From assembly GCA_027531255.1 (NCBI GenBank), contig JAPZRU010000006.1:1-64000 (forward strand): a stretch of 64,000 bases of DNA, in the 5' to 3' direction. Positions 33,877 to 47,632 of this stretch are shown piece by piece. Source of the DNA: Steroidobacteraceae bacterium. Lineage in GTDB: Bacteria; Pseudomonadota; Gammaproteobacteria; Steroidobacterales; Steroidobacteraceae. Below the pieces are notes generated by a model, which saw only the letters and a program-made list of their open reading frames with translations, did not search any database and was not told the DNA's origin. Within the stretch, counting starts at the first letter, position 1; the number at the start of each line of letters is the position of its first letter. A program made the translations under genes and the position numbers.

Positions 33877-34768
33877 AGGCGGCGTGCCGGCCGCAGGCGC
33901 GGGCGCGGGCGCGGGCGGCCTCGACGGGCGCGCGCGTGCGCCGCGCACGCTGTTTCGCGGACTCGCGGCGACGGCCCTCGGCGTCGCGATCGTCGTCGCC
34001 GCACTCGCCTCCCCCGTGCACGGCGCGCTCGCGAGTTCCACTACACCGCCCGTCGGCGCGCCGACCGCGACGCCGCCGGCCGTCGGCGTGCCCGGCACGA
34101 CCCGCGCCAACCCGCTGCGCCCGCACGTCGTGACCTACCGCGTGAACTTCAAGGGGATGGCCGGCGGCGTGCTCGTGCTGTCGCTGAAGCAGGACCCCGC
34201 GAGCGACGGCTGGATCTACGAGACGAACGCGAAGCCGAGCTTCCTGGCGCGGCTGGTCGTCAGCGCGAACTCGACCGAGCGCGGCTGGTTCGACCTGACG
34301 CCCGAGGGCGTGCGGCCGAAGCGCTACCTGCTCGAGGACGGCACGCGCGAGACGAAGCGCGACGCCGACCTGCAGTACGACTGGGGCGCCGGCCGCGTGC
34401 GCGGCTCCGCGCGTGGCGGCCCGCTGGACCTGCCCCTCGAACCGCGCACGCAGGACGCGATGTCGATCCGCGCGGCGCTGATCGCCGACCTGCAGGCCGG
34501 CCGCGAGCCCGGCACGATCCCGATGGTGGACGGTCGCGAGCTCAAGCACTTCGTCTACCGGCGCGAAGGCACCGCGAAGATCCCGACCGCGCTCGGCGAA
34601 CTCGACACGGTGATCTACACGAGCACGCGCAGGGGTGCGGACTCGCGCGCGCGGACGTGGAAGTACTGGTTCGCGCCGTCGCTCGGCTACGTGCCGGTGC
34701 GCATCGAGCAGCGCGAGGGCTCGGAGGCGCGGCTCACGTTCGCGATCCGGGAAGTCGACTGGCGGTGA
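33845..34768 (+). CDS. DUF3108 exported protein
   Basis: This 307-residue protein has a Gly/Ala-rich N-terminus, a hydrophobic segment at about 38-60 that could be a signal anchor, a Pro/Thr linker, and a DUF3108 domain (PF11306) from about 90, with VTYRVNFKGMAGG and KYWFAPSLGYVPVRIEQREG. DUF3108 genes commonly follow purN in gammaproteobacteria. A GGAGG ribosome-binding site inside purN supports this start, giving a 32-base overlap. Function is unknown. Confidence 0.85.
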   Translation: MNQVERIERVEGGVPAAGAGAGAGGLDGRARAPRTLFRGLAATALGVAIVVAALASPVHGALASSTTPPVGAPTATPPAVGVPGTTRANPLRPHVVTYRVNFKGMAGGVLVLSLKQDPASDGWIYETNAKPSFLARLVVSANSTERGWFDLTPEGVRPKRYLLEDGTRETKRDADLQYDWGAGRVRGSARGGPLDLPLEPRTQDAMSIRAALIADLQAGREPGTIPMVDGRELKHFVYRREGTAKIPTALGELDTVIYTSTRRGADSRARTWKYWFAPSLGYVPVRIEQREGSEARLTFAIREVDWR

Positions 34769-34783
34769 GGCGGCGCGCCCCGT

Positions 34784-35347
34784 TCAGGTCCTCGGCAGCG
34801 TGACGCCGGTCTGCCCCTGGTACTTGCCGCCGCGGTCCTTGTACGAGGTCTCGCAGACCTCGTCGCTCTCGAAGAACAGCATCTGCGCGACACCTTCGTT
34901 CGCATAGATCTTCGCGGGCAGCGGCGTGGTGTTCGAGAACTCGAGCGTGACGTGCCCTTCCCACTCGGGCTCCAGCGGGGTCACGTTGACGATGATCCCG
35001 CAGCGTGCGTACGTCGACTTCCCGATCGCGACCACCAGCGTGTTGCGCGGGATCCGGAAGTATTCGACGGTCCGCGCCAGCGCGAACGAGTTCGGCGGGA
35101 TGATACAGACGTCTGCGGCGACGTCGACGAAGCTCTGCGGGTCGAACGCCTTCGGGTCGACGATCGTCGAGTTGATGTTCGTGAAGATCTTGAACTCGTT
35201 CGCGCAGCGCACGTCGTAGCCGTAGCTCGAGGTGCCGTACGAGACGATCTTGCGGCCGTCGACGAAGCGGACCTGCTCCGCGTCGAACGGCTCGATCATC
35301 CCCTGCGCCGCCATGCGGCGGATCCACTTGTCCGACTTGATGCTCAT
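34784..35347 (-). CDS. dcd: dCTP deaminase
   Basis: This 187-residue trimeric enzyme deaminates dCTP to dUTP, supplying dTMP synthesis. The N-terminus [10 protein letters not shown], the SSYGYDVRC segment, the nucleotide-binding GKSTYARCG and the catalytic glutamate in [15 protein letters not shown] are intact. Size compares with E. coli Dcd (193). It lies downstream of mrp, 97 bases away, in the same direction; dcd and mrp are neighbours in many gammaproteobacteria. Confidence 0.96.
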
Positions 35348-35444
35348 GGCGACTCCGGCGACGGAGCCACCAGTATCGCGCAGCGCACGCCGCGGCGCGA
35401 GTGGCGCGCGCGCCGCAAACCCCTTGAAATCAGCCGCGCGCCGC

Positions 35445-36518
35445 TCAGTCGTCGCTGACCGACAGCGTCGGGAACGCGGTCGACGCGAGCCCCGTCGACA
35501 ACCGCGCGGCCGCGCGCCGCGCGATCGCGTGGTACGCCTGCGCGAGGCGCCCCTCCGGCTCCGCGACCACGGTGGGGCGCCCGCCGTCGGCCTGCTCGCG
35601 GATGCGGATGTCGAGCGGCAGCGAGCCGAGGAGCGGCACGCCGTACTGCGCGGCCATGCGCTCGCCGCCGCCGGCGCCGAACACCGGTTCCTCGTGGCCG
35701 CAGTTCGAGCACACGTGGGTCGCCATGTTCTCGACGATGCCGAGGACCGGCACCTCGACCTTCCGGAACATCTGCAGACCCTTGCGCGCGTCGAGCAGCG
35801 CGATGTCCTGCGGGGTGGTGACGACGATCGCGCCGGCGACCGGCACGCGCTGCGCGAGCGTCAGCTGCGTGTCGCCGGTGCCCGGCGGCATGTCGACGAC
35901 GAGGTAGTCTAGGTCGCCCCACCGCGTTTCGCCGAGCAGCTGCGTGAGCGCCTGCGTGACCATCGGGCCGCGCCACACCATCGGCTGCTCGGCGTCGATC
36001 AGGAAGCCGATCGACATCACCTCGACGCCGTAGTTGGCGAGCGGTTCGATGCTCTTGCCGTCGGGCGTGGTCGGCTGGCGGCCCTCGAGCCCCATCATCA
36101 GCGGCTGGCTCGGACCGTAGATGTCGGCATCGAGCAGGCCCACCTTCGCGCCCTGGGCGGCCAGCGCCAGCGCGAGGTTGGCGCTGGTAGTGGACTTGCC
36201 GACGCCACCCTTGCCCGAGGCGACCGCGATCACGTTCTTGATCGTCGGCAGCGGCTTCAGCTTGCCCTGCACCGCCTGAGGCACGATCTCGGCGCGGAGC
36301 CGCGCCCGCACCTCGCCGGACCAGCCGGCGGTGCGGAGCGCCTCGAGCAGCACGGGCTCGAGCGCCCGCTCGTGGCCGACCACCGGGAAGCCGAGCACGA
36401 CGTACACGGTCGCCGTCGTACCCTCGACCGCGACGCCGCGCACGGCTTCTCCGAGCGGCGCCCCGAGGGCGGGGTCCACGGCGGCAGCGGCGGCCGAGCG
36501 CAGGGCAGCTTCGTTCAT
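35445..36518 (-). CDS. apbC: Fe-S cluster carrier Mrp/ApbC
   Basis: This 357-residue P-loop ATPase (NUBPL/Mrp family) carries Fe-S clusters to target proteins. It has an N-terminal DUF59 (MIP18-like) domain (about 1-85), the deviant Walker [10 protein letters not shown] near 108-116, and the CxxC cluster pair in [17 protein letters not shown] near 264. Only the metG-side promoter region is unusual: mrp normally lies next to metG, but here a 5.3-kb block with a kinase and two PilT genes separates them. Confidence 0.95.
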
Positions 36519-36558
36519 GAGCGGCTATTCCGGAGCGAGTACGCGGGGCGAGCCCATC

Positions 36559-36564
36559 ATTGTA
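36559..36564 (-). promoter_or_regulatory. -10 box for mrp/apbC
   Basis: TACAAT on the minus strand matches the -10 consensus at five of six positions and lies 40 bases before the mrp ATG. It is back-to-back with the kinase-gene promoter about 50 bases away, so the 143-base gap serves both directions. Confidence 0.45.
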
Positions 36565-36613
36565 GCGGACGCGCCGGCGGCCCCGCCGCCGACCCCGGCA
36601 CGGCGCGCGCCTG

Positions 36614-36622
36614 TGGCATAAT
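36614..36622 (+). promoter_or_regulatory. Extended -10 promoter for the HEAT-kinase/pilT operon
   Basis: TG (36614-36615), one base, then CATAAT (36617-36622; five of six to consensus) forms an extended -10 element 39 bases before the TTG start. There is no recognisable -35. The same TGG-CATA arrangement precedes metG. Confidence 0.5.
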
Positions 36623-36661
36623 TTCAATTGGGGCCGTGCCGTTGCCACAGGTGTTCGAGTC

Positions 36662-39046
36662 TTGGGTTTCCTGACCGCGTTCCGGGGCGAACGGCTGCTG
36701 GCCGACATCAAGTCGGCCGGGGACCCGTCCAGCCCGCTGGCGCGCAAGGCGATCGAGAAACTCGTCGGGCTCGGTCCGAGCGCGATCCCGATGGTCCTCG
36801 AGGCGCTCGGCCAGGCGGACCGCAAGGAAACCGTCGCCTACGTCGAGGTGCTCGCTGCCCTCGCCGACCAGAAGAACCTCGCCGCCGTCGTGCGGGGCCT
36901 CGCGGACGGCAACTCGCGGACGGTCGCCGGCGTCGCGTGGGCGCTATCCACGAGCCGCAACTACGCGCCCTCCCAGTTGCTCGAGTACCTCAGGGATCCC
37001 GAGATCGCGACCTCGGCCCTCCTCGAGGTCATCGCGGCGCACAAGACCCGCATCCCGGTGCGCGAACTCGTGGCCGCCGCCTACGCGCAGGAATCCGGCG
37101 ACAAGGCGGCGCTGTTCAAGCTGATCGCGGACGTCGCCGACGAATCCGCGGTCCCGGACCTGCTGGCGCGCCTCGACGGCAAGGACGTCGCGGTGCGCAT
37201 CCACCTGATGGAGCTGCTGTCGCGCTTCCCGACCACCGAGGTCCAGCAGGCGCTGATCAACCAGCTGAAGGACTCGAGCAAGCTGGTCCGGCAGGCAGCG
37301 CTGGTGGCGCTGGCGCGGATGCCCGGGCTGCCGAGCGTGGCACCGGTCGCGAAGCTGCTCGCCGACCCCGACCTCGAGGTGCAGAACCGCGCGATCGACG
37401 TGCTGATCAAGGCGCGCGAACCCGAGACCGTGCGCTACCTGCTCCCGGTTCTGAAGGACGAGTCGGAGTACGCCCGGCGCGCCGCCGTCGAGGTGCTGAA
37501 CGAGGTCGGCGACGCCCGCTCGGTAAAGTACCTGCTGGCGGCGATCAAGGACGCGGACTGGTGGGTGCGGTCCCGCGCGGCCGACGCGCTGGGCAAGATC
37601 GGCGGTCCGAAGGTCGTCGACGCGGTGCTGCACCTCGTCCGCGACCCGGACGAGGAGATCCGTCGCTGTGCGATCGAGATCCTGAACCAGACGAAGGACG
37701 AACGCGCGATCGACTTCCTGCTCGCGGCGACGCGCGACCCCGACTGGTGGGTCAGCGAACGCGCGGTGGACGCCCTCGCGGAGATCTGGAGCCAGCGCGC
37801 CGTTCCGCGCCTCGTCGAGATGCTGAAGGGGCCCTCGCGCTCCGTGCCGGCGGCGATCCGTGCGCTCGCGAAGCTCGGCGACGCGGCGACCATCGACGTG
37901 CTCCTGCCGCAACTGGATCGCCCGGAGAAGGACATCCGCGTCGAGGCGATGAACGCGCTCGCCAGGCTCGCCGACGAACCGCGCGCCGAGCCCGTCCGCG
38001 CGCGCATCCACGCCGCCGCGCAGGCGGCGGGCGACGTGACGATCCACCAGGCGGCGAACCGCGCGCTCGAAAACCTGCAGGCGCGGTTCTCCACCACGCA
38101 GGTGCAGGCGAACCGCAAGGCGGCCGCGATGGCCCAGCCGGCGCGCACGATGCTGACCGACAACGCCGACATCAGCGCGATCGTCCGCGCCAACGAGCAG
38201 ACCCAGCGCCTCGACATCACCACGCTCAAGTCCGGCGAGGTGATCGAGGGCCGCTACCGCTTCATCGAGAAGATCGGCAAGGGCGCGTTCGGCACGGTGC
38301 TCCTGATGGAGGACACCGTGGTCGGCGAGCGGCTCGTGCTCAAGTTCCTGAACCCGACCGTCTCCCAGGACGAGGAGATGATGCAGCGGTTCGTGCACGA
38401 GCTGCGCTACAGCCGCAAGATCACGCACCGCAACGTGATCCGCATCTACGACTTCCTGTTCATCAAGGGCAACTACGCGATCTCGATGGAGTACTTCCCG
38501 AGCCACACGCTCGGCTCCGAGATCGTCAACGACGAGCCGCTCGCGGCGCCCCGCGCGGTCAAGCACGGCATCGACATCGCGACCGGCATGGCGGTCGCGC
38601 ACCAGGTCGGCATCGTGCACCGCGACCTGAAGCCCGCGAACGTGCTGATCAACGACGAAGGCCTCCTGAAGATCGTGGACTTCGGCGTCGCCGCGACGCA
38701 GCGCGAGGGCGATGCGCAGCTGACGAAGACCGGGTACGTGATCGGCTCGCCGAAGTACATGGCCCCCGAGCAGATCCTCGGCAAGCCCGTGGACCCGCGC
38801 GCGGACGTCTACAGCCTCGGCGTGATCCTCTACGAGATGCTGACCGGCGTCCCGCCGTACAGCCGGGGAGACCACATGGCGGTGATGTACCAGCACGTCC
38901 AGGGGAAGGTCAGGCCGCCGCTGGAACTCAACCCCGCACTCCCGCCCGCGCTGTCCGAACTCGTCGTCAAGGCGATGGCCGTGGACAAGCAGAAGCGCTT
39001 CCAGAGCATGGACGAGCTGCGGATCGCGCTCGAGAAGCATCTCTGA
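36662..39046 (+). CDS. HEAT-repeat and serine/threonine protein kinase fusion
   Basis: This 794-residue protein joins a long HEAT-repeat solenoid (about 10-475, with repeated helices such as DDSxxVRxxAAxAL-like units) to a C-terminal Hanks-type kinase domain (about 531-794). The kinase has a Gly-rich loop GKGAFGTV (540-546), Lys561, HRDLKPAN (653-660), DFG (673-675) and APE (701-703), so it should be active. No membrane helix is seen, hence a cytoplasmic protein. The start is TTG with an AGGTG ten bases upstream; no ATG or GTG precedes the first HEAT helices. It is followed by two pilT-type genes, suggesting a link with type IV pilus retraction or another surface function. The substrate is unknown. 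Confidence 0.9.
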   Translation: MGFLTAFRGERLLADIKSAGDPSSPLARKAIEKLVGLGPSAIPMVLEALGQADRKETVAYVEVLAALADQKNLAAVVRGLADGNSRTVAGVAWALSTSRNYAPSQLLEYLRDPEIATSALLEVIAAHKTRIPVRELVAAAYAQESGDKAALFKLIADVADESAVPDLLARLDGKDVAVRIHLMELLSRFPTTEVQQALINQLKDSSKLVRQAALVALARMPGLPSVAPVAKLLADPDLEVQNRAIDVLIKAREPETVRYLLPVLKDESEYARRAAVEVLNEVGDARSVKYLLAAIKDADWWVRSRAADALGKIGGPKVVDAVLHLVRDPDEEIRRCAIEILNQTKDERAIDFLLAATRDPDWWVSERAVDALAEIWSQRAVPRLVEMLKGPSRSVPAAIRALAKLGDAATIDVLLPQLDRPEKDIRVEAMNALARLADEPRAEPVRARIHAAAQAAGDVTIHQAANRALENLQARFSTTQVQANRKAAAMAQPARTMLTDNADISAIVRANEQTQRLDITTLKSGEVIEGRYRFIEKIGKGAFGTVLLMEDTVVGERLVLKFLNPTVSQDEEMMQRFVHELRYSRKITHRNVIRIYDFLFIKGNYAISMEYFPSHTLGSEIVNDEPLAAPRAVKHGIDIATGMAVAHQVGIVHRDLKPANVLINDEGLLKIVDFGVAATQREGDAQLTKTGYVIGSPKYMAPEQILGKPVDPRADVYSLGVILYEMLTGVPPYSRGDHMAVMYQHVQGKVRPPLELNPALPPALSELVVKAMAVDKQKRFQSMDELRIALEKHL

Positions 39047-39170
39047 GCGCCGGCCACGGCCACCCAGCGCAGCCGGGTGCATCCGCAGGCGCCTCGCGGC
39101 TTCGCCGCGCTCCGAACCGTGACGGATCCGGTGGATTCTCCCGGGATTATGTGATGTATTTCCCGCGGTC

Positions 39171-40265
39171 ATGCCGCGCATAGACGCGTTCCTGAAGCTC
39201 GGTTCCGCGCAGGGGTGCTCCGACGTGCACCTCGCCGTCGGCGTGCCCCCGATGCTCAGGATGAACGGCGACCTGATGCCGATCCGCTTCCGCAACCTCG
39301 GGGACTCGGAACTCGAGAGCTACGTCACCGAGATCCTCACGACGTCGCAGGTAGAGCACTTCAGGGGCGGCCACGACCTCGACTTCTCCTACGTCTCCGA
39401 GGATGGCGGCCGCTTCCGCGTGAACGTGTTCCGCAAGGACACGGGCGTCGGCGCCGTGTTCCGCGCGATCCCCTCGAGCGTGCCGACGCTCGCGAGCCTC
39501 AACCTGCCGCCGATCGTCACGAAGCTCCTCGACCACCACCAGGGGATGATCCTCGTGACCGGCGCCACCGGCACGGGCAAGTCGACGACGCTCGCGGCGA
39601 TGATCAACGAGCTGAACCAGACGCGCCGGCTCAACATCATCAGCCTGGAGGACCCGATCGAGTTCGTGCACCGGAGCAAGGAGGCGCAGATCATCCAGCG
39701 CGAGCTCGACACTCACCTGCCCTCGTTCGCCGAGGGCGTGCGCGCCGCGATGCGCGAGGACCCAGACGTCATCCTGGTCGGCGAGATGCGCGACGCCGAC
39801 ACGATCCGCATGGCGATGACCGCGGCGGAGACCGGCCACCTCGTCCTCGGCACGCTGCACACCACGAGCGCGGTCAAGACCATCGACCGCATCATCGACG
39901 CTCTGCCGATCGAGGAACGCGAGCAGACCAAGAGCTTCCTGTCGCAGAGCCTGATCGCGGTCGTCACGCAGATCCTCGTCAAGCGCGCCGACAGCCGGAG
40001 CCGCAAGGCGATCTGCGAGGTGATGGTCGTCAACCGCGCGATCGGCAAGCTGATCCAGACCGACCAGACGCACCAGGTGCCCGCGCAGCTGCAGACCGGC
40101 CGCGAGCTCGGCATGCAGCTGATGGACCAGGCGCTGCTGGCCGGCATCCAGGCCAAGGAGCTCGACCCGGACGACGCGTACAACTACGCGACCGACCGCA
40201 AGCTGTTCCAGCGCTTCGTCACGGACACGAGCCAGCTGCCCAAGCTGGACCTCGCGAGCGGCTGA
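39171..40265 (+). CDS. pilT: PilT-family retraction ATPase (first copy)
   Basis: This 364-residue hexameric secretion-type ATPase resembles PilT, which depolymerises type IV pili. It has Walker A GATGTGKST (131-139), Asp box SLEDPIE, Walker B PDVILVGEMRD (198-208) and a complete His box with His223 and His230 (TGHLVLGTLHT). The C-terminal retraction motif AIRNLIR of classical PilT is degenerate here (AIGKLIQ, 290-296). It follows the kinase gene by 124 bases, a stretch that includes a small CGCGGC/GCCGCG hairpin. It could be a PilT paralogue or PilU-like accessory motor rather than the main motor. Confidence 0.88.
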   Translation: MPRIDAFLKLGSAQGCSDVHLAVGVPPMLRMNGDLMPIRFRNLGDSELESYVTEILTTSQVEHFRGGHDLDFSYVSEDGGRFRVNVFRKDTGVGAVFRAIPSSVPTLASLNLPPIVTKLLDHHQGMILVTGATGTGKSTTLAAMINELNQTRRLNIISLEDPIEFVHRSKEAQIIQRELDTHLPSFAEGVRAAMREDPDVILVGEMRDADTIRMAMTAAETGHLVLGTLHTTSAVKTIDRIIDALPIEEREQTKSFLSQSLIAVVTQILVKRADSRSRKAICEVMVVNRAIGKLIQTDQTHQVPAQLQTGRELGMQLMDQALLAGIQAKELDPDDAYNYATDRKLFQRFVTDTSQLPKLDLASG

Positions 40266-40290
40266 GCGCCGCCCGCACTCCGAGCCCGCC

Positions 40291-41349
40291 GTGCCGCGCC
40301 TCGACGAATACCTCGCGGAAGTCGTGAACCGGAAGGGTTCGGACCTGCACTTCATCGCCGGCGACCCGGCGCGCCTGCGCCTGTACGGGGAACTGCAGCC
40401 GCTGCGCCCGGAGCCGCTGAAGGCGGACTTCGTGAAGGAGACGCTCTACGAGGTGATGCCGCCGAAGGCGATCGAGCGCTTCGAGGCGAAGGACGGCGCC
40501 GACTTCGCGCACACGGTACCCGGCGTCGCGCGCTTCCGCGTGAACGTGATGCGGCACCTGAACGGGATGGGCGCCGTGTGCCGCGCGATTCCGTCCACGG
40601 CGCTGACCCTCGACCAGCTGAACATGCCCGACGCGGTGCGCAGCCTGTGCCGCGTCAACAACGGGCTGATCCTGGTCACGGGCAAGACCGGTTCGGGCAA
40701 GTCCACGACGCTTGCCGCGATGATCGACGACATCAACTCGCGGACCAAAGGGCACATCCTCACGATCGAGGACCCGATCGAGTTCGTCCACCAGCGGAAG
40801 AACTGCCTGATCAGCCAGCGCGAGATCGGCACGCACGCCTCGTCTTTCGCGCACGCCGTGCACTCGGCGCTGCGCGAGGACCCGGACGTCATCCTCGTCG
40901 GCGAAATGCGCGACCTCGAGACCATCTCCGTGGCGGTTTCCGCCGCCGAGATGGGCATCCTCGTGATGGGCACGCTGCACACGAACGGCGCCGCGGCCAC
41001 CGTGGACCGCATCGTCAACGCGTTCCCGGCCGACAAGCAGTCGCACGTGCGCACGATGCTCTCGACCTCGCTGCGCGGCGTGATCTCGCAGCAGCTGATC
41101 CCGCGCGCGGGCCAGCCCGGCCGCGTGGCCGCGCTCGAGATCCTCGTGAACACGCCGGCGGTCTCGAACCTGATCCGCCAGGGCAAGCTCGACCAGCTCG
41201 AGAACTCGATGCAGTCGGGCGCCCAGCACGGCATGCGGACGATGGACATGGCGATCCAGCAGCTGCTGGACGCCCGGGCCATCACCGGCAAGGAGGCCTA
41301 CCGCAAGGCGATCAACAAGGCGCGGTTCGAGCAATTCCGGGACGGCTGA
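40291..41349 (+). CDS. PilT-family retraction ATPase (second copy)
   Basis: This 352-residue ATPase begins at a GTG 25 bases after the first pilT. Walker A is GKTGSGKST (131-139), Walker B is PDVILVGEMRD and the segment ILTIEDPIEFVH is classical. It keeps an AIRNLIR-like element (AVSNLIR, 290-296) but its His box lost the first histidine (MGILVMGTLHT: Ile223 in place of His). In the second position PilU is usual, but this protein is closer in motif to PilT than to PilU, and lacks the longer PilU tail. No pilus structural genes are nearby. A stem-loop directly follows the stop. Confidence 0.87.
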   Translation: MPRLDEYLAEVVNRKGSDLHFIAGDPARLRLYGELQPLRPEPLKADFVKETLYEVMPPKAIERFEAKDGADFAHTVPGVARFRVNVMRHLNGMGAVCRAIPSTALTLDQLNMPDAVRSLCRVNNGLILVTGKTGSGKSTTLAAMIDDINSRTKGHILTIEDPIEFVHQRKNCLISQREIGTHASSFAHAVHSALREDPDVILVGEMRDLETISVAVSAAEMGILVMGTLHTNGAAATVDRIVNAFPADKQSHVRTMLSTSLRGVISQQLIPRAGQPGRVAALEILVNTPAVSNLIRQGKLDQLENSMQSGAQHGMRTMDMAIQQLLDARAITGKEAYRKAINKARFEQFRDG

Positions 41350-41350
41350 A

Positions 41351-41369
41351 GGACGGCCGAGCGCCGTCC
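41351..41369 (+). terminator. Stem-loop after the second pilT gene
   Basis: A perfect 7-bp stem (GGACGGC and GCCGTCC) with a five-base loop starts two bases after the stop codon. It has no T run. It sits between this operon and the convergent KGG gene, so it may act on transcripts from the plus strand. Confidence 0.45.
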
Positions 41370-41427
41370 CGACGCCGCCCGGAACCCTCGCGAACCAGCG
41401 CCCTCCCCGCCGGGTTCCGCACCCCGC

Positions 41428-41757
41428 TCAGTGCCGGCGCTGCGAGCCGCCGCTGTCCGCGCCCGACCCGCCCGACGCGCCGGACGACCCGCCGGCGCCC
41501 TGCCCGGCGCTGCTCGCACTCGCCCCCCCGTGGGACTGCCCGCTGGCGCCGCTGCGCGCCGCGGCGGCTCGCGCGGCCCGGGAGCCGTGGCTCGCCATGC
41601 CGCCCTTGCGACCGGCGCTCGCGGCGAGCTCCGGATCCTTCGAGAAGCTGCGCTCGCTCGGCGGCACGCTCTGCCCACCCTTGCTGGCGATCGCGCGCTG
41701 CTTCGCCGGATCCATCGATGCGAAACCCCGGCTCGACGTCCTTCCCTGGTTCGCCAT
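41428..41757 (-). CDS. KGG-repeat stress-induced protein
   Basis: This 109-residue protein has two copies of the KGG repeat (PF10685): RGFASMDPAKQRAIASKGG (10-28) and RSFSKDPELAASAGRKGG (36-53), followed by a disordered Gly/Ser/Ala tail. Such small hydrophilic proteins, like plant and fungal con-10 or GsiB, are induced by stress and may act as hydrophilic protectants. A GGAGG ribosome-binding site seven bases before the ATG supports the start. It lies alone between the pilT operon and metG and is probably monocistronic. Confidence 0.88.
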   Translation of the reverse strand: MANQGRTSSRGFASMDPAKQRAIASKGGQSVPPSERSFSKDPELAASAGRKGGMASHGSRAARAAAARSGASGQSHGGASASSAGQGAGGSSGASGGSGADSGGSQRRH

Positions 41758-41854
41758 GTGCTCGACCTCCGTGTCGTAAAGGCGTAACGAGGATTTGCAG
41801 GATCCGTGCCGCTTCCCGCCCGATGGACGTTTCCCGGCGGGGGATCCGGGCGAC

Positions 41855-41863
41855 TGGCATACT
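41855..41863 (+). promoter_or_regulatory. Extended -10 promoter for metG
   Basis: TG (41855-41856), one base, then CATACT (41858-41863) forms an extended -10 element 33 bases before the metG ATG. It resembles the element before the kinase gene. Confidence 0.45.
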
Positions 41864-41896
41864 TTCGCGCTTCCCTACGCCCGCCATCGCCCGCCC

Positions 41897-44083
41897 ATGC
41901 GCCGCATCCTCGTCACGAGCGCCCTGCCCTATGCCAACGGGTCGCTCCATTTCGGCCACATCCTCGAAGCCGTGCAGACCGACGTCTGGTGCAGGTATCA
42001 GCGCCTGCGCGGACACGAGTGCTACTACGTCTGCGCCAGCGACACGCACGGCACGCCCATCATGCTGAAGGCCCAGTCCGAGGGCGTCGCGCCCGAGGAA
42101 CTGATCGCACGCATCGGCGCGGAGCAGCGTGCCGATTACGAGGGCTTCCTCGTCCGCCACGACTGGTTCCACTCGACCCACTCGCCGGAGAACCGCGAAT
42201 ACACCGAGCGCATCTTCCACGCGCTCGACGCCGCGGGGCACGTCGCGCGCCGCACGATCCGCCAGTCCTACGACGCGCAGGCCGGCATGTTCCTGCCCGA
42301 CCGCTACGTTAAGGGCACGTGCCCGGTGTGCCGCACGCCCGACCAGTACGGCGATTCGTGCGAAAACTGCAGCGCCACCTACACGCCCCTGGACCTGATC
42401 GACCCGGTTTCGGTCGTCACGGGTACGCGCCCGGTCGAACGCGAGTCGGAGCACCTGTTCTTCCGGCTCGGCGCGTTCGAGCCGATGCTGCGCGCGTGGA
42501 CGCGCAGTGGCGCGATCCACGAAGGCGTCGCGAACAAGCTCGAGGAGTGGTTCGCGGCCGGCCTCAAGGACTGGGACATCTCGCGGGACGCGCCGTACTT
42601 CGGCTTCGAGATCCCGGGCCATCCCGGCAAGTTCTTCTACGTCTGGCTCGACGCGCCGATCGGCTACATGGCCAGCTTCGCCGCGCTGTGCCGTGCGCGC
42701 GCGCTCGACTTCGACGCCTGGTGGTGCGCGGGCAGCGACGCGGAACTCCACCACTTCATCGGCAAGGACATCCTCTACTTCCACACGCTGTTCTGGCCCG
42801 CGGTCCTGGAAGGCAGCGGATTCCGCAAGCCGACCGCGGTCCACGCGCACGGCTTCCTGTCGGTCAATGGACAAAAAATGTCCAAGTCGCGCGGAACTTT
42901 CATCACCGCGCGACGCTACCTCGAGCGCCTGCCCCCCGAGCCGCTGCGCTACTACTTCGCGGCCAAGCTGGGCTCAGGCATCGAGGATCTCGACTTCTCG
43001 CTCGACGACTTCGTCGCGCGCGTCAACGCGGACCTCGTCGGCAAGGTGGTCAACATCGCGAGCCGCTGCGCCGGATTCGTCGCGCGGTCCGGCGGGCGCC
43101 TCGCGGAGCGCCTCCCGCAGCCGGCGCTCTACGACGAGTTCGCGGGCGCGCGCGAGAGGATCGCGGCGCTCTACGAGTCGCGCGACTTCGCGACCGCGAT
43201 GCGGGAGATCATGGCGCTCGCGGACCGTGCCAACCAGTACATCGACGCCGAGAAGCCCTGGAACCTCGCGAAGGATCCGGCCCGCACGCGCGAGGTCGTC
43301 GACGTCTGCACCCAGGGCATCAACCTCTTCCGGGTGCTGGCGTACTATCTCGCGCCCGTGCTGCCCGACCTCGCGGAACGCGCCGGCCGCTTCCTCGGGC
43401 ACCCGATCGCGCACTGGGACGAGGTCGCGCAGCCGCTGCTAGGCACTGCGCTCGCGTCCTACGAGCCGCTGGCGACGCGCCTCGACCCGAAGGTCGTCGC
43501 CTCGCTGGTCGAAGCGCAGCCGGACGCCGCGGACGGTGCCGCGTCGGTCTCCAGCGCGACGCAGCCGGCGGGCGCGACGAAGGCCGCTGCGACGGCGAAG
43601 CGTGGCGGAACGCCGTCCGTCCCGGCGGCGAAGACGACGAGCGATGGGGCACGCTCCAGCGAAGCGGCACCGACGGCCGGAGCGGCTCCCGGGGGCGCGG
43701 CCACCGGTGCGCAAGGCGGCGCGCCTGCCGCCCCGGTCACCGAAGCAGCCCCGACCGAGATCACGGTGGACGACTTCGCGAAGCTCGATCTCCGCGTCGG
43801 CCGCGTGCTCGAAGCGAAGCTCGTCGAGGGCGCGGACAAGCTGCTGGAACTGTCGGTCGACCTCGGCGCCGGCGACGTGCGTACGATCTTCGCGGGCATC
43901 CGCAGCGCCTACGCTCCGGACCGGTTGGTCGGTCGCCACGTCGTCGTGGTCGCGAACCTGAAGCCCCGCAAGATGCGCTTCGGCACCTCGCAGGGCATGG
44001 TGCTCGCGGCGGGCCCCGGCGGCACCGAACTGTTCGTCGTCTCGCCGGACGACGGCGTGCAGGCCGGCATGCGCGTGAAGTGA
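41897..44083 (+). CDS. metG: Methionyl-tRNA synthetase
   Basis: This 728-residue class I enzyme charges tRNA-Met. The HIGH element is HFGH near 18, the zinc knuckle uses [17 protein letters not shown] near 143-159, and the KMSKS loop is [10 protein letters not shown] near 333. A C-terminal EMAP-type tRNA-binding domain starts about residue 625 ([16 protein letters not shown]). It is longer than E. coli MetG (677) because an Ala/Thr/Gly-rich linker of about 75 residues joins the anticodon domain to the EMAP domain. The ATG was chosen as it opens the conserved [14 protein letters not shown]. Confidence 0.96.
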
Positions 44084-44099
44084 GACGCGCGAGCCCGCG

Positions 44100-44723
44100 A
44101 TGAGCACCGCGCTGGCCGACGAACTGGACGCGCTGCTGCCGCAGACGCAGTGCACGCGCTGCGGCTACGCGGGCTGCCGGCCCTATGCCGAGGCGCTGGC
44201 GGCGGGCCTCGCCGACGTGGACCAGTGCCCGCCCGGCGGGAGCGCGACCGCCGCGGCGCTAGCCGCCCGGCTCGGCCGCCCCGCGAAGTCGGTGAACCCG
44301 GTCCACGGCGTCGAGGGTCCACCGCGCGTCGCCGTGATCGACGAGTCGGTCTGCATCGGCTGCGCCAAGTGCCTGCCGGTCTGCCCCACCGATGCGATCG
44401 TCGGCGCCCAGAAGTTCCTGCACACCGTCATCGCCGCCGAGTGCACCGGGTGCGAGCTCTGCATCCCGGCCTGCCCCGTGGACTGCATCGCGTTGGCGCC
44501 GACCGCGCCGGCGCCGCTCCCGCTCGGCGAGATCCGCGCGCGCGCCGCGCGGTATAGGCCGCGCTACGTCGCGCACGTCGAGCGCGAGGCGGGGCGCGCC
44601 GCCGCGCGCGACGCGGCGCTCGCGGCGCGGCGGCCGGGCGCACGCAGCGGCGAGGCTGCGAACCCGCCGCCACGCGTCACCACGGACGTGGCGCCGCACG
44701 GCACGGGGCCCGCGTCCCGATGA
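44100..44723 (+). CDS. rnfB: RnfB-type electron-transport ferredoxin, lone subunit
   Basis: This 207-residue protein has an RnfB-type Fe-S domain (Cys18, 21, 26, 43) followed by two [4Fe-4S] ferredoxin clusters (Cys85, 88, 91, 95 and Cys115, 118, 121, 125). It lacks the N-terminal membrane helix of membrane-bound RnfB and has a basic Ala/Arg/Pro tail. The other Rnf/Rsx subunits (A, C, D, G, E) are absent here. The gene overlaps nth by four bases. Such orphan RnfB proteins occur beside nth in some proteobacteria; their partner is not known. Confidence 0.86.
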   Translation: MSTALADELDALLPQTQCTRCGYAGCRPYAEALAAGLADVDQCPPGGSATAAALAARLGRPAKSVNPVHGVEGPPRVAVIDESVCIGCAKCLPVCPTDAIVGAQKFLHTVIAAECTGCELCIPACPVDCIALAPTAPAPLPLGEIRARAARYRPRYVAHVEREAGRAAARDAALAARRPGARSGEAANPPPRVTTDVAPHGTGPASR

Positions 44724-45484
44724 GTCCCGCGAAGCGTCACGAGATGTTCGCGCGCCTGCGCGCCGCGAACCCCAACCCCACGACCGAGCTCGCGTGGTCG
44801 TCGCCGTTCGAACTGCTGGTGGCCGTGATCCTGTCGGCGCAGATGACCGACAAGGGCGTGAACGCGGCGACCGCGAAGCTGTTCCCGGTCGCGAACACAC
44901 CGCAGGCGATTGCCGCGCTCGGCCTCGACGGCCTGCTGCCGTACCTGCGCACGATCAACTTCTGCAACACGAAGGCCGCCAACGTGCTGGCGACCTGCAC
45001 GGCGCTGCTGGAGCGGCACGGCGGCGAGGTGCCGCGCGACCGCGAGGCGCTCGAATCGCTGCCGGGCGTCGGCCGCAAGACTGCGAACGTCGTGCTGAAC
45101 ACCGTGTTCCGCGAGCCGGCGATGGCGGTGGACACGCACATCTTTCGCGTCGCGAACCGCACCGGGCTCGCGCCGGGCGAGGACGTCCGCGAAGTCGAGG
45201 ACCGGCTCCTGAAGGTCGTGCCCGCCGAATTCCTGCTCGACGCGCACCACTGGCTGATCCTGCACGGGCGCTACGTGTGCAAGGCGCGCACGCCCGAGTG
45301 CTGGCGGTGCGAGATCCGCGACCTGTGCGCGTACCGGCCGAAGACGCCCGACCCGGCGGCGACGGTGCCACCGCCGCGAGCGAAGGCGGTGGCGAAGAAG
45401 CAGGCGTCGCGGGTCAGGACGGTGGCGAAGGTGGTGCGGTCGCGGGCCGGGGCGCCGGCCCGGCGCCGCAAGGAGCAGGCATGA
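44720..45484 (+). CDS. nth: Endonuclease III
   Basis: This 254-residue base-excision-repair glycosylase/AP lyase acts on oxidised pyrimidines. The helix-hairpin-helix is LPGVGRKTANVVL with catalytic Lys120, the aspartate is Asp138, and the [4Fe-4S] cluster uses Cys187, Cys194, Cys197 and Cys203, all at the same numbers as E. coli Nth. The last 45 residues form an extra basic tail rich in Lys, Arg, Ala and Pro that E. coli lacks. It overlaps rnfB and slyX by four bases each, so the three genes are coupled. Confidence 0.96.
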   Translation: MSPAKRHEMFARLRAANPNPTTELAWSSPFELLVAVILSAQMTDKGVNAATAKLFPVANTPQAIAALGLDGLLPYLRTINFCNTKAANVLATCTALLERHGGEVPRDREALESLPGVGRKTANVVLNTVFREPAMAVDTHIFRVANRTGLAPGEDVREVEDRLLKVVPAEFLLDAHHWLILHGRYVCKARTPECWRCEIRDLCAYRPKTPDPAATVPPPRAKAVAKKQASRVRTVAKVVRSRAGAPARRRKEQA

Positions 45485-45687
45485 GCGGCGATTCGCGCCT
45501 GGAGACGCTCGAGTTCAGGCTGACGCACCTCGAGCGCGCCGTGCAGGAACTGAGCGACGTGCTATATCGACAGCAGCAGCTGCTCGACGCGATGAGCGCG
45601 CGCCACGAGCGGCTGCTGGAGCGGGTCGAGGCCGCCGAACGCAAGGGCGAGGATCCGCCGGCGTTCGAGATACCGCCGCACTACTAG
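45481..45687 (+). CDS. slyX: SlyX family protein
   Basis: This 68-residue protein is nearly all coiled coil, with the pattern RLETLEFRLTHLERAVQEL followed by LYRQQQLLDAM and a C-terminal PPAFEIPPHY, matching SlyX (PF04102). Function is unknown; in E. coli slyX sits by slyD. It overlaps the nth stop by four bases (ATGA). It converges with lpdA across 184 bases with no convincing terminator. Confidence 0.88.
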   Translation: MSGDSRLETLEFRLTHLERAVQELSDVLYRQQQLLDAMSARHERLLERVEAAERKGEDPPAFEIPPHY

Positions 45688-45871
45688 CTTCTGCCTGGCG
45701 AGCGCAAGACGCACGAGGCGGATGCGCCACCCGAGACGCCGGGGCGTCCACGAAAGCGGGTCAAGTCCAGGTTCGTCGCACCGCTGGCCGCGTCGTTGGC
45801 GCGGGTCGCGGGTGACGGGTCGCAGGCTGCGCGCCGCAGGCTCCGCGCGCCAGAGGGCCTCGCCCCTCCCC

Positions 45872-47632
45872 TCAGCCCTTCTTCGGCACGTAGAGGTCGG
45901 TCAGCGTCCCCTCGAAGGCCTCGGCCGCGAACGCCACCGTCTCCGACAGCGTCGGATGCGGGTGGATCGTGAGGCCGACGTCGGACGCGTCTGCCCCCAT
46001 CTCGATCGCCAGCGCAAGCTCCGAGATCAGGTCGCCCGCGTTCGTGCCGACGATGCCCGCACCCACCACGCGGTGCGTGTCCGGGTCGAACAGCAGCTTC
46101 GTGAAGCCTTCCTCGCGATTCAGCGCGAGCGAGCGGCCCGACGCGATCCACGGGAACGCGCCCTTGCCCACCTTGATGCCCTGCGCCTGCGCCTCGGTCT
46201 CGGTCAGCCCGACCCAGGCCACCTCGGGGTCCGTGTAGGCCACCGACGGGATCACGCGCGCGTCGAACGCGCGCTTCTCGCCGGCCGCGACCTCGGCCGC
46301 GACCTTGCCCTCGTGGCTGGCCTTGTGCGCGAGCATCGGCGCGCCCGCGATGTCCCCGATCGCGTAGATGTGGGGCACGTTCGTGCGGAGCTGCCGATCC
46401 ACCGGCACGAAGCCGCGCTCGTCGACGCGCAGCCCCGCGGCCTCCGCGCCGATCGTGCGCCCGTTCGGGCGCCGACCGACGGCGACGAGCACGCGGTCGT
46501 AGAGCTGCGGCTCGGGTGCACCCGCGCCCTCGAACGTCACGCGGACACCCTCGGGCAGCGACTCGAGCTTCGCGACCTTGGTGCCGGTCAGGATCGCCTC
46601 GTACTTCGCGCGGATGCGCTTCTCGAGCGGCCGCACGAGGTCGCGGTCGCAGCCCGGCATCAGGCCGGGCGAAAGCTCGACGACCGAGATCTTCGTGCCG
46701 AGCGCCTCGTAGACGCATGCCATCTCGAGCCCGATGATGCCGCCGCCGATCACGAGCATCCGCTTCGGGATGCCCTGCAGTTCGAGGGCGCCGGTGGAAT
46801 CGACGATCCGCGGATCGTCTGGCTGGCCCGGCAGGCGGACCGGCTCGGAGCCGGCCGCGACGATGCACTGCTCGAAACCGACGATCGTCGTGCCGTTCGG
46901 CCCGCGCACCTCGATCCGATGTGGCGCGACGAAGCGCGCCTCGCCGCGCACGACCTCGACCTTGCGCTGCTTCGCGAGCGAACTCAGCCCCGAGGTGAGC
47001 CGGCTGACGACGCGGTTCTTCCAGGCGCGCAGCCGGTCCGGGTCGATCTGCGGCCGCCCGAACACGATGCCGAAGTTCGCCATCGACTCGGCGTCCTCGA
47101 TCACCTTCGCCGCGTGCAGCAGGGCCTTCGACGGGATGCAGCCGACGTTGAGGCAGACGCCGCCGAGCGTCGGCCAGCGCTCGATCAGGCCGACCTTCAG
47201 GCCGAGGTCGGCGGCGCGGAACGCAGCGGTGTAGCCGCCGGGGCCCGCACCGAACACGACGAGCGGGAACGTGACGTCGGCCGTCGGCTGGCCACCGGCG
47301 CCGGTCGCCGGCGTCGGCGTCGGCGCGGGCGCGGACGCGGACGCGGGTACGGGCGCGGGTGCGGGCTCGGCTGCCTCGGCGGCGACCGGGCCCGCGGCGG
47401 CGACGCGCGCGAGCAGCGTGCCCTCGTTGACCTTGTCACCCGGCTTGACCAGCAGCTCCGCCACGGTGCCGGCGAACGGCGCCGGCACGTCGATGCTGGC
47501 CTTTTCGCTCTCGAGCGTGACGAGCGGGTCGTTCTCGGCGACTACGTCGCCCGGCTTCACCAGCACCGCGATCACGGGGACGTCCTTGAAGTCCCCGAGC
47601 GCGGGCACACGCACTTCGCTCGGCGCGCTCAC
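45872..47632 (-). CDS. lpdA: Dihydrolipoyl dehydrogenase with N-terminal lipoyl domain
   Basis: This 586-residue flavoprotein is the E3 subunit of pyruvate dehydrogenase. Unlike E. coli Lpd (474) it has an N-terminal lipoyl domain (about 1-78, lipoyl Lys44 in ESEKAS) and a Pro/Ala linker (about 80-118). The E3 core has FAD motif GAGPGGYTAAFRA, redox disulfide Cys160-Cys165 (CLNVGC), and the catalytic His559 and Glu564 in HPTLSE. Such lipoyl-fused E3 proteins are common in gammaproteobacterial aceEF operons. The ATG overlaps the aceF stop by four bases. Confidence 0.95.
   Translation of the reverse strand: MSAPSEVRVPALGDFKDVPVIAVLVKPGDVVAENDPLVTLESEKASIDVPAPFAGTVAELLVKPGDKVNEGTLLARVAAAGPVAAEAAEPAPAPVPASASAPAPTPTPATGAGGQPTADVTFPLVVFGAGPGGYTAAFRAADLGLKVGLIERWPTLGGVCLNVGCIPSKALLHAAKVIEDAESMANFGIVFGRPQIDPDRLRAWKNRVVSRLTSGLSSLAKQRKVEVVRGEARFVAPHRIEVRGPNGTTIVGFEQCIVAAGSEPVRLPGQPDDPRIVDSTGALELQGIPKRMLVIGGGIIGLEMACVYEALGTKISVVELSPGLMPGCDRDLVRPLEKRIRAKYEAILTGTKVAKLESLPEGVRVTFEGAGAPEPQLYDRVLVAVGRRPNGRTIGAEAAGLRVDERGFVPVDRQLRTNVPHIYAIGDIAGAPMLAHKASHEGKVAAEVAAGEKRAFDARVIPSVAYTDPEVAWVGLTETEAQAQGIKVGKGAFPWIASGRSLALNREEGFTKLLFDPDTHRVVGAGIVGTNAGDLISELALAIEMGADASDVGLTIHPHPTLSETVAFAAEAFEGTLTDLYVPKKG

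Follow-up and report, generated by a model that had tools for sequence, protein, structure and literature searches.

The motors of the PilT/VirB11 type are described as rings of a single protein (PMC5424180, PMC13142100, PMC6762196, PMC4237445, PMC6821130, PMC6153414, PMC6858323, PMC12607626), and their working symmetry is stated to be an open issue (PMC6858323). In the PilT of Geobacter metallireducens, the HIS box extends from Thr221 to His230, and it is His230 that contacts ATP; Thr221 and His230 meet between chains at the closed interface, and His230 has been proposed to hand a proton to Thr221 of the adjacent packing unit (PMC6858323). According to the same report, Arg296 of this protein is an open-interface residue, and R294E, a substitution of the equivalent residue, reduces twitching in P. 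aeruginosa (PMC6858323). Both histidines of the HIS box have been stated to be required for function, and a role in coupling to PilU has been suggested for the AIRNLIRE motif (PMC6762196). At the subunit interface of PilB, the residue that corresponds to Thr221 is held between those that correspond to His223 and His230 (PMC5424180). Several systems also carry more than one of these motors. For instance, PilT and PilU of V. cholerae are reported to form separate homohexamers (PMC6821130), the several pilT genes within a Geobacter or Bdellovibrio genome are reported to have specialised roles (PMC5065972, PMC4237445), and Neisseria PilT2 is an extra paralogue beside PilT and PilU (PMC10790696), which we liken to the present case by description only.

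The locus described here likewise carries additional PilT paralogues. It lies in a window of 64,000 nucleotides, the whole stretch of DNA that was analysed (positions 1 to 64,000 of contig JAPZRU010000006.1), from a Steroidobacteraceae bacterium whose assembly (GCA_027531255.1) comprises 4.2 Mb in 40 contigs with a completeness of 95.6%. Three genes follow one another on the forward strand, with the following features:

36662-39046, forward strand: HEAT-repeat Ser/Thr kinase gene (HEAT-kinase), the first gene of the trio, 794 aa, putative TTG start
38255-39007, forward strand: Pkinase domain, residues 532-782 of the HEAT-kinase (Pfam Pkinase match)
39171-40265, forward strand: PilT-A (P1), a PilT/PilU-family ATPase, 364-aa open reading frame
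39831-39860, forward strand: HIS box of PilT-A, with Thr221, His223 (39837-39839) and His230 (39858-39860) all present
40038-40061, forward strand: PilT-A counterpart of AIRNLIRE, AIGKLIQT, without Arg296 and mostly without Glu297
40291-41349, forward strand: PilT-B (P2), a PilT/PilU-family ATPase, 352-aa open reading frame, GTG start
40951-40980, forward strand: HIS box of PilT-B, with Met221 (40951-40953), Ile223 (40957-40959) and His230 (40978-40980)
41158-41181, forward strand: PilT-B counterpart of AIRNLIRE, AVSNLIRQ, with Arg296 present

The kinase gene is separated from P1 by 124 bases and P1 from P2 by 25. A metG-like gene begins at 41795, after P2, and divergent mrp-like and dcd-like genes lie upstream (names by reading); between P2 and metG, a small minus-strand open reading frame (41428-41757) has KGG-like repeats and is stress-protein-like by reading. 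No pilus genes were recognised on reading the open reading frames listed for 34000-47000, and a scan of 36400-41900 gave no promoters or terminators (shuffled sequences gave 0.3 and 2.0). The first gene product matches the Pfam families HEAT_2 (1.5e-71, in 7 stretches) and Pkinase (2.1e-49), and its catalytic motifs HRDLKPANV and DFG are intact by reading, so that it qualifies as a Ser/Thr kinase (PF00069). Its assignment to the PASTA-domain Stk1 kinases (NF033483) was rejected, as it reached 271.4 bits against a cut-off of 450, and with the kinase part only.

Both of the following proteins belong to the PilT/PilU family, scoring 409.8 (P1) and 439.3 bits (P2) against TIGR01420, above its curated cut-off of 319.1. 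We take the PDB chain 3jvu to be the PilT of P. aeruginosa, and the species of the chains 5zfq, 2ewv and 5fl3 are likewise assumed. Searches with phmmer relate P1 and P2 to the 3jvu chain at 1.5e-91 and 2e-98, with identities of 45% and 50% over 334 positions, and both resemble this canonical PilT in fold family, length, Walker A and B motifs, Asp box, arginines and His230; between themselves, they are identical at 150 of 352 aligned residues. PilU, like the window pair, provides a second PilT-family ATPase that accompanies PilT, and the chain 9n32, which is probably V. cholerae PilU to judge from its name and from PMC13142100, is 35% identical to P1 and 37% to P2. The HIS box of P1 has Thr221 and both histidines, as in canonical PilT, whereas P2 departs from this pattern at residues 221 and 223; the complete AIRNLIRE motif is found in neither, although the P2 version is close. 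Unlike canonical PilT, the two proteins are also encoded in tandem behind a HEAT-kinase. No such partner is mentioned for the Geobacter and Bdellovibrio PilT paralogues in the portions of the reports cited here (PMC5065972, PMC4237445), and, as a further difference from the window pair, the four Geobacter paralogues are reported to retain the conserved His-box histidine (PMC5065972). Among the literature matches listed, which were covered by titles and abstract openings and with most subscription papers outside the coverage, we found no paper describing a PilT together with a HEAT-repeat/kinase module.

The sequence-only reading of this locus had proposed that the two PilT paralogues lost different key elements, the first keeping His223 with a degenerate AIGKLIQ at residues 290-296 and the second having Ile223 with AVSNLIR, and that this complementary decay could have left them as a mixed motor or as a motor with an accessory. 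The residues were named correctly. The residue numbers, which are those of P1 and appear to be those of the Geobacter metallireducens PilT, judged by matching residues named in papers, make the ATP-contacting histidine of the HIS box His230 (PMC6858323), which is present in both proteins, and what was read as decay turned out to be a pair of fixed subfamily signatures. In fact, across 88 P1 rows and 82 P2 rows (sets that contain a few near-duplicates and some genomes twice, with 75 P1-P2 pairs non-redundant at 95%), His223 is present in every P1 row and substituted in every P2 row (80 Ile, 2 Val), while Arg296 is absent from all P1 rows and present in all P2 rows. Thr221, His223 and His230 occur together in 88/88 P1 rows, and Glu297 in just 4 of them; in the P2 rows, His230 is present in 82/82 and residue 221 is Met in 48, Thr in 32 and Val in 2. 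The Walker A Lys137, the Asp-box Glu164, the Walker B Glu205 and the arginines 81, 83 and 98 are present in all rows of both sets. These counts leave out a truncated P1 (L153) and five P2 that are partial or split (L093, L100, L108, L126, L138); Ile223 could also be read in four of these P2 (L093, L100, L108, L126). In two loci, the P2 frame is broken into two pieces (L100:2552-3739, L138:6981-8174) by a sequencing error or as a broken gene.

The departures from PilT are also not symmetric, which led us to reject the idea that each protein has lost one key element. In a set of 57 PilT-type rows, 83 positions reach at least 95% conservation; of these, PilT-A differs at 7 (132, 155, 189, 245, 254, 296 and 297) and PilT-B at 2 (132 and 223), where a position counts as different if fewer than 20% of the A or B rows have the PilT residue; the PilT-A changes include the loss of His155 and Arg254. 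By this comparison, PilT-B is near PilT except in the HIS box, and PilT-A is more divergent. Given that both box histidines are stated to be required (PMC6762196) and that the PilB equivalents of His223 and His230 enclose that of Thr221 (PMC5424180), Ile223 likely matters for PilT-B.

The association of the three genes is widely conserved. Of 247 genomes of the order, counting that of the window, 205 have a P1 orthologue (E <= 1e-105). Among 33 relatives in which P1 was found, 30 loci were fetched, and all 30 have the HEAT-kinase, P1 and P2 together. The mrp-like gene is present in 26 and the metG-like gene in 28 of these 30 loci, the absentees falling mostly at locus ends. In a draw from the class, P1 was found in 42 of 370 genomes, 37 of them outside the order, and in the best-scoring 25 of these 37 loci, P2 always adjoins P1 (25/25) and the kinase is present in 23. 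The two remaining loci, L108 and L109, have the P1-P2 pair with no HEAT-kinase recognised in the upstream stretch examined. A genome collection yielded 80 named loci. Of the 33 that are of P1 type, 31 have P2 and 32 have the kinase, each of the three absences falling at a contig end; the remaining 47 loci are mostly canonical PilT types together with a few distant A-B pairs. The closest P1 among the named loci come from MAGs and from Steroidobacter agaridevorans, which makes the order probably Steroidobacterales, in the class Gammaproteobacteria. Overall, A stands beside B in every examined locus whose contig extends far enough.

Phylogeny agrees with this picture. A first tree, built from 114 rows, has one clade for P1 and one for P2 (support 100 each), with the PilU references elsewhere. 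A tree of 69 rows, built without columns 221, 223, 230 and 290-297, again recovers a P1 clade (100/100) and a P2 clade (100/100), the latter inside a single clade of all 22 B rows from three phyla (95/89), with PilU outside. Both trees thus put P1 and P2 on the PilT side, and a PilU identity for either was rejected. The A rows of the 69-row tree lie near one another with weak support, two A rows from candidate division CSSED10-310 standing apart, and AU tests, on groups named after seeing a tree, rejected neither all A as one clade (p 0.51) nor A and B together as one clade (p 0.47). A single origin of A and B through tandem duplication is therefore allowed by these tests, not shown. Taken together, the alignments and trees identify PilT-A and PilT-B as separate, long-conserved PilT subfamilies, neither decaying copies nor PilU.

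The suggestion that the two proteins work instead of a PilT/PilU pair holds in that neither groups with PilU, and fails in that the genome also has that equipment elsewhere. It encodes six PilT-family proteins over the cut-off. Contig C35 has a tandem of a canonical pilT and two PilU-like genes, so the absence of a canonical pilT can be discarded and the window pair supplements the canonical set without replacing it. The sixth protein (G000:C13:25017-26036, L080) is encoded on a contig of its own and is placed by the tree near the PilU-type rows. Among 40 genomes, that of the window included, P1 and canonical pilT (called at E <= 1e-120) occur in 34 each, with 32 genomes having both, 4 neither and 4 only one (Fisher p 0.002, ignoring relatedness); P1 without a canonical pilT match at this threshold was found in two relatives, G001 and G026, which are 82-83% complete.

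Thermodesulfobacteriota and candidate division CSSED10-310 also have tandem pairs whose second member is of B type. When 395 genomes from the phylum of a Desulfomonilaceae MAG were searched, this MAG among them, 12 matches reached E <= 1e-160: 7 are A-B pairs in which B has Ile223, and the other 5 are His223 PilTs with no partner within their 4-kb locus. With L171, these 7 make eight Thermodesulfobacteriota pairs, and in all eight, A has Thr221 and His223 with Ser (4) or Ala (4) at residue 230, and B has Leu221, Ile223 and His230; these A proteins also lack Arg278 (Met in 5, Gln in 3). For reference, Thr221 and His230 are present in 57/57 PilT-type and 21/21 PilU-type rows (78/78, or 72/72 without the typed PDB rows), and His223 in 56/57 and 21/21. 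The sole exception is a Desulfobacterales PilT (L168:5962-7035) with Leu223 and no tandem partner recognised in its 13-kb locus. In the three CSSED10-310 pairs, A has Thr221, His223 and His230, and B has Thr221 and His230 with Ile, Thr or Ser at 223. Thus, the split is complete in Thermodesulfobacteriota and partial in the window lineage, where A has both Thr221 and His230. A draw from the window's phylum with a profile of B matched 111 of 199 genomes at 1e-140; among the places listed, P2 of the window alone scored as high as B proteins do, and the best 19 other loci all have His223.

Because the contact between Thr221 and His230 spans two neighbouring subunits, a Thermodesulfobacteriota ring made of A alone or of B alone would be expected to lack the T221-H230 pair at all its interfaces, and an alternating A-B ring to contain it at every other interface. 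The mixed motor of the earlier reading thus gains indirect support from the adjacency of A and B and from this division of His230 and Thr221 in eight of eight distant pairs, and none from the motifs first named. We also looked for covariation at 13 published inter-chain contact pairs across the 75 non-redundant A-B protein pairs. Most contact columns barely vary; A339-B124 (z 4.6) and A259-B339 (z 4.7) stood out, at levels reached by 0.010 and 0.0075 of entropy-matched column pairs, A271-B32 (z -2.0) and A277-B32 (z -1.8) went in the opposite direction, and the strongest A-B signals overall (z 13) resemble shared ancestry.

There are also signs of a connection between HEAT repeats and PilT-A. 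In the CSSED10-310 genome, G619, which has three tandem A-B pairs (L244:2348-11706, L245:8927-12746), two of the three A proteins have N-terminal HEAT repeats (open frames of 923 and 932 aa). When the HEAT part of one fusion was searched in the window's genome, only the HEAT-kinase matched (6.7e-42, with a second weak stretch in the same frame); in the reverse search with the whole window kinase, the two HEAT-PilT-A fusions were the best HEAT-confined matches (7e-42 and 3.5e-25), the others in that genome being 1.4e-10 or weaker. One of its A-B pairs is followed by a kinase and then by another HEAT-repeat protein, with gaps of 12 and 45 bases. This kinase may be there by chance, as the genome has 27 kinase-domain matches. 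Near the Thermodesulfobacteriota pairs, BLAST at 1e-4 found no relatives of the HEAT-kinase (some neighbours were also scanned with Pfam), which argues that the link is not general. Hence, HEAT repeats and A are linked in two phyla, through fusion or neighbourhood, and the kinase link is firm in Gammaproteobacteria only. In two phyla, response-regulator/HD-domain proteins, HD-GYP-like by reading, adjoin A-B pairs (L237:6555-7781, L245:7193-8914), and L184/L246 has a gene of similar appearance upstream of its pair; a link between A-B pairs and c-di-GMP is possible.

We put about even weight on the proposal that PilT-A and PilT-B act jointly as an extra motor, controlled by the kinase, that retracts type IV pili. 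They would form a second retraction motor beside canonical PilT, and the HEAT-kinase would control it, with its HEAT part serving as a dock onto A. A more specific form of this proposal, an obligate mixed ring with His230 from B and Thr221 from A, alternating productive and dead sites and a HEAT-kinase that docks on A and gates it, strikes us as rather unlikely. In such a ring, the productive ATPase sites would lie between B, with its ATP site and His230, and the neighbouring A, offering Thr221 across the interface, and the sites of the other kind would be weak or dead. F1-ATPase is a ring ATPase with alternating site types, and the proposed alternation between strong and weak sites would follow the same logic, but the families differ and this is an analogy only. 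Against the mixed ring stands the presence of Thr221 in those 32 of the 82 B rows and in the three CSSED10-310 B proteins. An A homohexamer could also work alone in the window lineage, as A has both Thr221 and His230 there, and the loss of His230 need not kill a ring, since P. aeruginosa PilT H229A is reported to be partly functional (PMC12607626).

The strongest competitor, to which we give a substantial chance though well short of an even one, is that A and B form two separate homohexameric motors that stack or alternate in turn like PilT and PilU, one engaging the platform protein and the other adding force or regulation. V. cholerae PilT/PilU offers a direct precedent (PMC6821130), the window lineage retains Lys137, Glu164, Glu205, Arg81/83/98 and His230 in both proteins, and the motif suggested to couple to PilU (PMC6762196) is mostly present in B and not in A. 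However, in all eight Thermodesulfobacteriota pairs a homohexamer of either protein would have one partner of the T221-H230 contact missing from all its interfaces, and the A proteins there also lack Arg278. It is less probable still, and in our view improbable, that the pair has no part in pilus retraction and works for a different type IV filament or in an unrelated process that a kinase controls. The order's trio does stand beside mrp-like (26/30) and metG-like (28/30) genes with no recognised pilus genes, and G001 and G026 have P1 with no canonical pilT match at the threshold used, but the kinship of both proteins to the solved PilT chain is close (1.5e-91 and 2e-98) and canonical pilT is also present in 32 of the 34 genomes with P1. 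Finally, complementary decay of two redundant copies is scarcely credible, for although the motif differences are real, they are constant throughout the order and in genomes outside it, both subfamilies are old clades, and the other tabulated catalytic residues are intact in the window lineage.

A natural pair that divides the interface residues His230 and Thr221 between its members would make it possible to test, through the mutation of one subunit type only, which interfaces hydrolyse ATP. The HEAT-kinase, if it is truly a partner, would connect Ser/Thr phosphorylation directly with pilus retraction.
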